From a virus, in IMG/VR virus record IMGVR_UViG_3300034682_000444, positions 1 through 38,106 of that record: DNA of 38,106 nucleotides; one strand, 5' to 3'. Below, piece after piece: positions 6,700 to 9,112 of this stretch. The position numbers were made by a program, and so were the translations under genes. A model generated the notes under the pieces. The model searched no databases, had not been told where the DNA came from, and worked only from the letters and a program-made list of their open reading frames with translations. The stretch's first letter is position 1. Every line of letters begins with the position of its first letter.

Positions 6700-7236
6700 C
6701 TAAGACTTAAAGTCTGCAAAAAAACGCTTGAACCAATGCTGCATAGGTACATGGTCAGGGTGACCATCAGCCGCAGACTGCTCCCGCTCACAGATCAACA
6801 TCAAAGTCTTCAGTGGTGGTGGTGTCTTTGCACACAGTCGAGCGTATTCAGCCCCCCACAGTGCTGTGCCTGCCGCATTCAATTGTCCGGCAGGAACTGC
6901 CTCAATAGATGCAACCAAGTTTGCTGCTTGTTCTGCCAATTCTTTATGCGCTTGCTTGCGGTCGCCATAGCCGAACACCAAGGCCAGCAAGCCCAAAGCA
7001 GAGATGGCAGATGCCACATACGGCAAAAGCGTCTTCAACTCTTGACCCAGCAACGATGCTCCAAGCAGCACCGTGAATGACTTCGTTAGCTTGTCGACCA
7101 GGTCAAAGAATCGCTGACGCCTGCGGTGGTATCGAACCTGCACCCAAGCATTCCTCAAGACTGCACAACGCTGGTTCCACACGGCTTCAGCGCGGCTTTC
7201 TTCAAGTGCGGCCTGGGCAGATGGCGTTTCAGTCAT
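6700..7236 (-). CDS. Two-TM SLATT-like membrane protein
   Basis: A 178-residue protein with a basic N-terminal helix (WVQVRYHRRRQRFFD, about 31-45), two hydrophobic segments (about 53-71 and 72-90) and then a charged helix GDRKQAHKELAEQAANLV (91-108). That order, with the charged D/K/H/E helix just after the second membrane segment, resembles the SLATT family of two-TM effectors linked to prokaryotic conflict systems. The resemblance is by pattern only. It is the last gene of the repressor operon, so it should be made in the lysogen; membrane-based superinfection exclusion or abortive infection is the natural inference. No good ribosome binding site precedes the ATG. A holin-like role is an alternative. 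Confidence 0.6.
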   Translation of the reverse strand: MTETPSAQAALEESRAEAVWNQRCAVLRNAWVQVRYHRRRQRFFDLVDKLTKSFTVLLGASLLGQELKTLLPYVASAISALGLLALVFGYGDRKQAHKELAEQAANLVASIEAVPAGQLNAAGTALWGAEYARLCAKTPPPLKTLMLICEREQSAADGHPDHVPMQHWFKRFFADFKS

Positions 7237-7259: not shown

Positions 7260-7421
7260 TTATTTAGGGCGTGGCGGTGGCGGTGGCGGCGGCGTGAAGT
7301 AGACAGCGCCACCTCCATCCCGATGTGACTTTGAGAGGTCATCGCGGTTGTTTGGCGTTGGCCTTGGTGGGGCTGGTGGTGGCGCTGGTTTAGGCGGTGG
7401 TGAATTCTTAGGGCTACTCAC
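7260..7421 (-). CDS. Proline-rich 53-residue protein
   Basis: A small protein that begins at a GTG (7421) with AAAGGAG six bases upstream, a better start than an ATG 19 codons earlier. Composition is striking: PPPKPAPPPAPPRPTP near the N-terminus and TPPPPPPPRPK at the C-terminus flank a short charged middle (NNRDDLSKSHRDGGG). No signal peptide or TM is seen. Proline-rich ends of this sort often bind partners or act as linkers. It lies between the YbjQ-like and SLATT-like genes in the same operon. Function unknown; it may serve its neighbour at 6700-7236. Confidence 0.6.
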   Translation of the reverse strand: MSSPKNSPPPKPAPPPAPPRPTPNNRDDLSKSHRDGGGAVYFTPPPPPPPRPK

Positions 7422-7529
7422 GTTGATCTCCTTTTGGAAAAACTCATTTATTCCCGTATGTGCAGCTTTGCTGTGCAACGCGCTGCTTCACTCAAAATTG
7501 CTGTTAGCGACCACAAATCCCACTGGCAT

Positions 7530-8081
7530 CTAGTCTGCAGGCATCAATTTAACCGCTGTCCCCGTCGCAACCACAAACAGCATCGACTTGCCACCGCCTG
7601 AAAACTCATTGAAATCCAATCGCACACCGACTACAGCATCGGCCTCCAGCGCGAAGGCCTCGGCGCGCAACTCGGCCATCACTTGGCGCCTGGCATCGCG
7701 GAGCACTTTCTGAGTGGATCCACTGCGGCCGCCCACCACATCGGTGACGTTGGCAAAAAAATCTTTGAACAGGTTCATGCCGTAGGCACACTCGGCAGAC
7801 ACCACATCGACCACTTTGGTAATGGTGTGGCCTGGCACGGTATCTGTCGTGGTGACCACCATGTGGGCCATGGCCCTGCCTAGCTCTTGGGGAGGTATTT
7901 GGTTGCGCGGTACGCCGGTCCAGTCTCCCGTCTGCCGAGCACGGGTAATTCGGTCGCGCAACGCAGCCACTTCGTCATAGCGCGAATAAATCAAGCCACA
8001 CCCATATGCAGGGCACTTGTCGAGCTCTTCTCCAGTTGCATGGAGGTTTACATGGCCGCATTTAGGACAAGTACGCTGCAT
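7530..8081 (-). CDS. Zinc-ribbon plus YbjQ-like domain protein
   Basis: A 183-residue protein. Residues 1-30 hold a zinc ribbon (CPKCGH, then CPAYGCG), and the C-terminal part (about 75-180) is a YbjQ/UPF0145-type domain, once called heavy-metal-binding: TTTDTVPGHTITKVVDVVS, FFANVTDVVGGRSGS, ADAVVGVRLDF and VATGTAV match the family pattern. YbjQ proteins form pentamers; their role is unknown. The ATG at 8081 has AAGGAGA four bases upstream, so an in-frame ATG 16 codons earlier is rejected. It is a host-type protein carried in the immunity operon, and thus a likely moron expressed in the lysogen. Confidence 0.82.
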   Translation of the reverse strand: MQRTCPKCGHVNLHATGEELDKCPAYGCGLIYSRYDEVAALRDRITRARQTGDWTGVPRNQIPPQELGRAMAHMVVTTTDTVPGHTITKVVDVVSAECAYGMNLFKDFFANVTDVVGGRSGSTQKVLRDARRQVMAELRAEAFALEADAVVGVRLDFNEFSGGGKSMLFVVATGTAVKLMPAD

Positions 8082-8135
8082 AAGTCTCCTTGGTGTTGAT
8101 AGGGGAGCACTCGGTGGAAGGTTTGCCACGCCTAC

Positions 8136-8702
8136 TCAATAGCTGACACGCTGTGGCTGCTTGCGATAGCGTGGCGCCTCGGTCGTACCAGATTCACCCA
8201 ACACCACATCCAGATAGCGGTTCAACCGGAATAGCTGTTCAGTCTTCAAGTGAATCACCATGCGGGTCCCAAACTCGCGCTCCATGAAGTCCAGCACCTG
8301 CACGCGGTCACGCAGTTTGCCCATGCGCCGTAGCGTGGCCGATTGTTCGATAGAGGTGGGCTGAGTGGCTGGCCCGGCGGGGGGAGTATTTGGGCGCAAG
8401 CCCGTGCGATCTGCACAGTGGGCAGCTGGCGCCATGCTGGGCGCCTGAATGATGGTGATGTGCTGGCTGACCACATTGCCCCCAGCACTGCCTACTTGCA
8501 CATTGCCGTGACCCACGCCAGACATCACTGTGACGTGATGCTGGTGCTGCACAGGGGCATGGTGGTGGTGCGTACTTTTGTCAACGTGCACCTGCGCATT
8601 GCCCTGTAACTGGCCTATCTGAATGGCCTCATCTCCTACCACTTTTTGTCGTGGTAATAGCTTGCGCAACCAAGCCAGAAGTTGCTTCGGTACACCGCCC
8701 AC
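8136..8702 (-). CDS. Protein with two RHIM/PP-like motifs, repressor-linked
   Basis: A 188-residue protein I cannot name. Residues 21-40 are VVGDEAIQIGQLQGNAQVHV, which matches the C-terminus of the repressor next door (VVGDNAIQIGNVAGKARI). A second, looser copy is at 62-83 with NVQVGSAGGNVV. The IQIG and VQVG cores are those of RHIM/PP-type amyloid motifs. Between them is a His-rich stretch (HHHH at 45-48, then HQHH). The C-terminal domain (about 118-170, with LRDRVQVLDFMEREFGTRMV) is helical and looks like a conserved module, perhaps nucleic-acid or protein binding. GTG start at 8702 with GAGGGG upstream, 11 bases after the repressor stop. Confidence 0.7.
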   Translation of the reverse strand: MGGVPKQLLAWLRKLLPRQKVVGDEAIQIGQLQGNAQVHVDKSTHHHHAPVQHQHHVTVMSGVGHGNVQVGSAGGNVVSQHITIIQAPSMAPAAHCADRTGLRPNTPPAGPATQPTSIEQSATLRRMGKLRDRVQVLDFMEREFGTRMVIHLKTEQLFRLNRYLDVVLGESGTTEAPRYRKQPQRVSY

Positions 8703-8713
8703 TCGCGCCCCCT

Positions 8714-9112
8714 CTATTTGTTTTTGATTCTCGCCTTGCCCGCCACATTGCCAATTTGAATGGCGTTGTCACCCACCACGCTTTGACCGTTGTGACCTGC
8801 GCTGCCGCCCGACAACAAGGCAGCCAAAGCCGCCTTGCGCAAGGTAGGAGAGGCCTCCCGGTAGCTCTCAAGCAAGAGCTGCTCGTCAGCCGTAATGGAT
8901 GGGGCAGGCTCCTCTACGCGTTTCCCCGTCACGACGTAGAGCACGTTGACACCCAATAGCGCAATACCTTCCAGATACAGCGCATCAGGCGCACGGTCCC
9001 CCGCCTCGTAGTTGATTTGGGCGCGTTTCTGAACCCCGCCAACCGCAGCGAAGCGCTCTTGGGACATCCCAAGTCGCTCACGTTCTTCACGCAGTCGCTG
9101 ACCAATGCTCAT
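8714..9112 (-). CDS. XRE-family phage repressor (CI-like) with C-terminal IQIG motif
   Basis: A 132-residue transcription factor. Residues 3-60 form an XRE helix-turn-helix (GQRLREERERLGMSQERFAA ... INYEAGDRAPD), which would keep the early promoter shut in the lysogen. There is no LexA/CI-type peptidase domain. The C-terminus (112-130) is VVGDNAIQIGNVAGKARIK, a motif shared with the next gene. The ATG at 9112 is chosen because the earlier in-frame start would run through the promoter region; AGGTG lies 7 bases upstream. A TTTGCACA half-site overlaps the start codon, so autoregulation is likely. First gene of the immunity operon. Confidence 0.88.
   Translation of the reverse strand: MSIGQRLREERERLGMSQERFAAVGGVQKRAQINYEAGDRAPDALYLEGIALLGVNVLYVVTGKRVEEPAPSITADEQLLLESYREASPTLRKAALAALLSGGSAGHNGQSVVGDNAIQIGNVAGKARIKNK

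Follow-up and report, generated by a model that had tools for sequence, protein, structure and literature searches.

A motif matched between a phage repressor and its downstream neighbour: a candidate two-gene cassette wired like bacterial amyloid-signalling pairs, without an NLR

In bacterial amyloid signalling sequence (BASS) pairs, matched motifs are located at the protein ends of the products of adjacent genes, one member being an effector with a membrane helix and the other an NLR (PMC7889193). The BASS3 peptide of Frankia, VDLRDAKGVQVGDGNVQINRF, has been verified as an amyloid, and both BASS3 and BASS3-like peptides bind Congo red (PMC8086366). Whether bacterial signalling amyloids also exist in NLR-independent pathways was asked in a 2021 review of amyloid signalling (PMC7889193). 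In a second type of system, SinR-SinI of Bacillus subtilis, the residues through which SinR forms heterodimers are also present in SinI (PMC3163267). For the immunity regions of B3-like phages, it has been reported that lysogens of phage Fc02 transcribe the repressor together with the next gene (PMC9936078); the Fc02 repressor has no motif of the kind described below, and its transcription is therefore used here only as an operon analogy. No paper on matched motifs in phage repressors was found in a search that left out preprints and most subscription journals, and the literature searched held no description of the motif pair of phages B3 and Ps59.

The window analysed here is the whole stretch of 38,106 nucleotides of the virus record IMGVR_UViG_3300034682_000444. 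It encodes a MuA-type transposase matching phrog_310 (E 7e-105), whose DNA is 66-67% identical to that of the transposases of B3-like Pseudomonas phages. Judged by its Mu/B3-type transposase and repressor region, the window is classed as a B3-like transposable phage. The repressor gene is read from the minus strand, opposite to the early transposition operon, and is followed by a gene whose product is called the partner here. The features of the pair are as follows.

8714..9112, minus strand: repressor, 132 aa, with an N-terminal HTH_3 domain (Pfam E 3.8e-6), two further helices and a C-terminal tail
8726..8785, minus strand: repressor tail motif QSVVGDNAIQIGNVAGKARI, residues 110-129, then KNK (from the sequence)
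8136..8702, minus strand: partner gene, 188 aa, GTG start, beginning 12 bases past the repressor stop codon on the same strand
8658..8687, minus strand: short cationic helix at the partner's N-terminus, KQLLAWLRKL, residues 6-15 (AlphaFold2, pLDDT about 65-70)
8589..8648, minus strand: partner motif copy 1, QKVVGDEAIQIGQLQGNAQV, residues 19-38, local score 62, unmatched in 2,000 shuffles
8478..8522, minus strand: partner motif copy 2, weaker, SGVGHGNVQVGSAGG, residues 61-75, shuffle p about 0.005
8190..8363, minus strand: helical domain at the partner's C-terminus, residues 114-171 (AlphaFold2, pLDDT about 73-97)

Relatives of the repressor in B3-like and P2-like phages carry a repressor annotation, and the similarity to them (phages B3, Ps59, KS5 and others) is confined to the DNA-binding part. 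The AlphaFold2 model, built with 37 relatives, has a confident helix-turn-helix (HTH) and two helices with pLDDT >90 across most of residues 1-100, while tail residues 106-132 have pLDDT <50 and are predicted to be disordered. By Foldseek, the nearest folds were those of P22 c2, SinR and restriction-modification C-proteins including C.Csp231I (probability 1.00, at E values of only 0.005-0.02), and the SinR-SinI complex and HigA-type antitoxins were also among the matches. Among relatives, the location of the motif in the repressor tail is conserved and its sequence is variable.

The partner, whose GTG start is preceded by a good ribosome-binding site (AGAGGGGG), had no match in Pfam, PHROGs, NCBIfam or PADLOC, no phage tblastn match, no PDB sequence match and no convincing PDB fold match, and a close homologue was found in the viral contigs only in the phage at locus L007 (E 1e-11). 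In the AlphaFold2 monomer, both motif copies and the His-rich linker fall in a disordered stretch, and the C-terminal domain forms a confident three-helix model; the ORF6C-like partners of other phages align with this domain over their second half (FG-T-x-L-x-x-L pattern). A simple hydropathy scan predicted no membrane segment. The N-terminal helix might associate with a membrane, but its hydrophobic moment did not differ significantly from that of shuffled sequences (p 0.17), and for this reason the helix was rejected as a membrane anchor. The His-rich linker HVDKSTHHHHAPVQHQHHVTV that joins the two motif copies (window 8525-8588, minus strand) could bind metal. Next in the cluster stands a third gene (7530-8129, minus strand) that begins with a zinc ribbon and contains a YbjQ domain (PF01906, E 4e-30), an unusual cargo for a phage repressor region. 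Two further reading frames on the minus strand lie within the interval from the partner gene to the endolysin, one with a hydrophobic, possibly membrane-spanning middle (6700-7236, phrog_11791) and one of 72 residues that is proline-rich (7260-7478).

An earlier note on this DNA had claimed that the repressor C-terminus and the next gene share a motif, with a second copy in the latter, and both 18-residue sequences were recovered at their places. The best local alignment between repressor and partner is exactly the shared motif, with a score of 62, whereas the highest of 2,000 shuffles reached 54. When all 37 adjacent gene pairs of the window were compared, the repressor-partner pair had a z of 7.2 and every other pair 1.4 or less. 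A chance match was ruled out by the shuffles together with these z scores. The DNA beneath the two motifs is identical at 41 of 72 positions, and the hydrophobic-Q-hydrophobic-G core is present as IQIG in the repressor and partner and as VQVG in partner copy 2. The second copy, also claimed by the note, is present at about residues 61-75; it is weaker, reads VGHGNVQVGSAGG, and in an alignment corresponds to the only motif that the L007 partner has. Repeated copies are not general, as the window partner alone passed the repeat test.

The relation between the two motifs was then quantified over related phages, using a locus set obtained from scans of genomes and viral contigs (101 loci, 75 non-redundant, 73 usable). 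Over these 73 non-redundant loci, the repressor tail scored a mean of 42.2 against its own next gene and 26.2 against the next genes of other phages; none of 20,000 permutations reached the own-pair mean, the permutation maximum being 30.5. A score of at least 38 was found in 40 of the 73 own pairs and in 6.7% of mismatched pairs. Similarly, for the 28 loci in which a motif on both sides was judged from the evidence of other loci, own pairs averaged 56.4 and mismatched pairs 33.4 (permutation maximum 45.1), and within hand-assigned motif classes the values were 53.8 and 40.7 (permutation maximum 47.2, 0 of 5,000 permutations). Motif types differ among phages, including IQIG, VGQVAGGDI, GNNNRTAGRD, GGVAGRDI and others, and the two genes shift together, also within a class; no pair straddles clearly defined motif classes. 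On a 39-row repressor tree, crude regular-expression labels of motif and partner changed at least 19 times, a rough count because some of the labels are misses.

Individual pairs illustrate this pattern. Phage B3 has ISVTGDGNRTAGRDFHE in the repressor tail and IEVTGSNNIVAGRDFIE in ORF20, L007 has MTMSHVGDGNVQVGQ in the tail and MTMADVGKGNVQIGQ in the partner, and L009 pairs VFHGQVGQ with IFRGQVGQ. Scans seeded with partners gave five new non-redundant loci (L116, L117, L118, L123 and L130), and in each of them the tail of the repressor encoded upstream matches the partner. PHROG-seeded genome searches added L110, in which GDFHGQLVEGNVNN pairs with GDFNGQLANGNINN, and L109, in which the repressor tail matches and two consecutive partners each bear the motif. 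Repressors below the cut-off at L035, L036, L044, L069, L073 and L101 had motif-like neighbours when read, and the motif-bearing repressors of L020, L022 and L079 had no clear partner on reading. L112 (829-2013) is an exception to the pairing: its partner bears the motif, and the HTH protein encoded upstream lacks it. A 21-column motif profile run against 300 genomes of the order returned only the L109 prophage, itself among the query motifs, and its weaker matches were unrelated, noise-like proteins. Some loci have further features. The two partner genes of L109 (1043-1405 and 1345-2286) follow a single repressor, and L039 and L092 have a further motif gene farther downstream. L069 belongs to a close relative of the window phage, with a similar lysozyme further downstream, and its partner (1603-2052) opens with a Trp-rich stretch, MWEAMWKWFSIWTAPW, ahead of an IQIG-type motif.

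Partners as a set have the motif columns alone in common. Among them are ORF6C-like proteins that have a membrane helix at the C-terminus, zinc-ribbon proteins with two membrane helices, and plain two-helix membrane proteins; 2 of 37 matched ORF6C, one matched the anti-repressor Ant, no known toxin family was found among them, and PADLOC matches were marginal. The motif sits at the C-terminus of the repressor and in the N-terminal part of the partner, and in many loci the two genes have a start offset of −3, that is, a 4-base overlap. By hydropathy scan, a membrane segment was predicted in 27 of 39 partners and in 14 of 33 next genes of non-motif loci (p 0.03), a modest enrichment. At identical motif residues the codons agreed in 196 of 434 cases, not far from the 168 that codon usage predicts, which indicates that the match is maintained at the protein level; this divergence of codons at matching residues ruled out a recent duplication or gene conversion. 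The pairing itself, as read from these comparisons, appears to be what the relatives conserve.

The earlier note had also compared the IQIG and VQVG cores with the RHIMs of RIPK1 and RIPK3 and had proposed a search of the motif against RHIM profiles. The Pfam RHIM profile PF12721 matched none of the six IQIG/VQVG-type stretches (the window tail, both partner copies, the L007 pair and the L069 tail), while the Frankia BASS3 peptide, run as a positive control, was matched (E 0.0013), and RHIM membership was rejected; moreover, the motifs of most relatives have no IQIG/VQVG core. The interpretation given in the note thus survives in part: a link between the adjacent genes through the matched motif is supported, but the RHIM identity falls away. 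Repressor and partner are tied by the co-variation over many phages, by the partner-seeded scans and by a gene logic that works like that of a BASS pair. Pairwise shuffles gave p 0.003 for the L007 tail VGDGNVQVGQ and p 0.01 for window partner copy 2 against the BASS3 peptide, and p 0.007 for the VGQQI-type L015 against the BASS3-like peptide of Methanothrix; for the window repressor the similarity was weak (p 0.05 to the BASS3 peptide and p 0.02 to BASS3-like peptides).

The motif match, the co-variation, the modular partner domains and the predicted tail disorder are shown here, while physical binding, beta stacking and any direction of control are inferred. Motif-to-motif binding of repressor and partner is likely, whereas cross-beta stacking of the motifs is a finely balanced proposition, and coupling of the repressor state to a usually membrane-located partner has about an even prospect. 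Taken whole, the proposal, which we consider evenly poised, is a two-gene lysogeny cassette with motif-to-motif, probably cross-beta, binding and with partner assembly coupled to the repressor. Gene 1 would be a short phage repressor consisting of a DNA-binding domain, a helical segment and a disordered tail terminating in a motif for self-association, about 20 residues long, and gene 2 would be a partner with the same motif near its N-terminus and a variable domain, membrane-located in most relatives. The matched motifs would stack as beta-arches, in cross-beta form as in BASS/RHIM signalling, and the partner would act as an accessory effector or as an anchor, its assembly being coupled to the repressor. 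Clusters of repressor could, for instance, nucleate the partner at the membrane, hold it there or release it, and so serve exclusion, addiction or the sensing of infection. A bolder version, which we find doubtful, is an NLR-free amyloid-type switch in which the repressor would template membrane-effector assembly through a phage-private, evolving motif code, so that its state (DNA-bound, free, or titrated by an incoming phage) is turned into a membrane response.

Among other explanations, the one that survives best, possible though on the unlikely side, is an ordinary folded hetero-oligomer, such as a short beta-helix or beta-prism, with the motif as a fixed docking tag devoid of amyloid or templating behaviour. 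The negative RHIM profile, the many motif classes without a Q-rich or IQIG core, and the fact that the AlphaFold2 models are of single chains only are consistent with it, whereas the glycine-rich pattern with short hydrophobic steps, the occasional repeated copies, and the class-wise likeness to Congo red-binding BASS3 and BASS3-like peptides (PMC8086366) speak against it. Rather unlikely is a SinI-like or membrane-sequestering antirepressor, in which the motif would be the element by which the repressor itself oligomerises and the partner's copy would draw the repressor into mixed complexes, mostly at the membrane, lowering DNA binding and setting the induction threshold. It fits the closeness of the repressor fold to P22 c2, SinR and C-proteins, the SinR-SinI complex among the matches, the sharing of heterodimer-forming residues noted above for SinI, the ORF6C (two) and Ant (one) matches in partners, and the ORF6C-like C-terminal domain of the window partner. 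However, the SinR-SinI contact uses folded helices whereas the phage tail is predicted to be disordered, and simple sequestration needs no variable partner domains. Further, the partner gene directly follows the repressor gene on one strand, in a segment that lysogens of a related phage, Fc02, transcribe (PMC9936078), although the genes of Fc02 carry no motif, so that an antirepressor would be produced while repression is needed.

A toxin-antitoxin-like addiction module, in which the repressor is an antitoxin masking a membrane-active partner that is freed upon repressor loss, is improbable. Gene order, the frequent 4-base overlap, the disordered tail after an HTH domain, the small partners with membrane helices and the HigA-type antitoxins among the fold matches all accord with such a module; against this, antitoxin tails do not normally copy toxin sequence, no known toxin family and only marginal PADLOC matches were found, and the partner in the window lacks a membrane segment. 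That the match is a leftover of neighbour-gene duplication or recombination with no interaction is very improbable, for although the genes adjoin and phages often duplicate DNA locally, the codons at matching residues have diverged as codon usage predicts and both sides switch motif class together in partners that are otherwise unrelated and share the motif alone.

The matched-motif cassette is a concrete, widespread and cheap candidate for an NLR-independent signalling amyloid, with partners of 120-250 residues, and both the model phage B3 and the related phage Ps59 carry it. Through it, phages would gain a private code for pairing, by which lysogeny is linked to a protein of the membrane; the cassette also accounts for a set of 'hypothetical' genes beside phage repressors.

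Compared with known systems, the phage pair resembles SinR-SinI in combining an HTH repressor, with a P22 c2/SinR-like fold by Foldseek in the window, and a neighbouring protein that has a related interaction segment. It differs in that the segment common to SinR and SinI is helical whereas the phage motif is short, predicted to be disordered and beta-prone, and in that the phage partners have diverse domains and are mostly membrane proteins. With type II toxin-antitoxin operons that have HTH antitoxins it shares the order of an HTH protein with a disordered tail first and a partner downstream, often overlapping, but the phage pair copies sequence between the two proteins and has no known toxin fold. 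As in the immunity regions of Fc02, B3 and Ps59, an accessory gene and lysis genes come after the repressor in the window, while Fc02-type repressors, unlike that of the window phage, have no motif. RHIMs of RIPK1 and RIPK3 share the IQIG/VQVG cores with the window pair and a few relatives; most relatives have other cores. Closest are the BASS NLR-BELL pairs, especially BASS3. Because the phage pair includes no NLR it is not a BASS NLR pair: the counterpart of the effector is a phage HTH repressor in place of an NLR (NACHT/NB-ARC), no BELL domain came up among the domain matches of phage partners, the orientation is reversed, with the motif C-terminal in the DNA-binding protein and N-terminal in the effector, and the hosts are Proteobacteria and their phages. 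In both, however, a short matched motif stands at the ends of two proteins encoded by adjacent or overlapping genes, joined to separate folded domains and, in the phages, predicted to be disordered; and several motif families exist, each matched inside its own pair. A predicted membrane segment in 27 of 39 phage partners, though not in that of the window, may correspond to the membrane helix of BASS effectors, and a resemblance to the verified BASS3 and BASS3-like peptides is seen in some phage motifs. The best reading is therefore of a matched-motif repressor-partner cassette that seems to be wired like the bacterial amyloid-signalling pairs, without an NLR.
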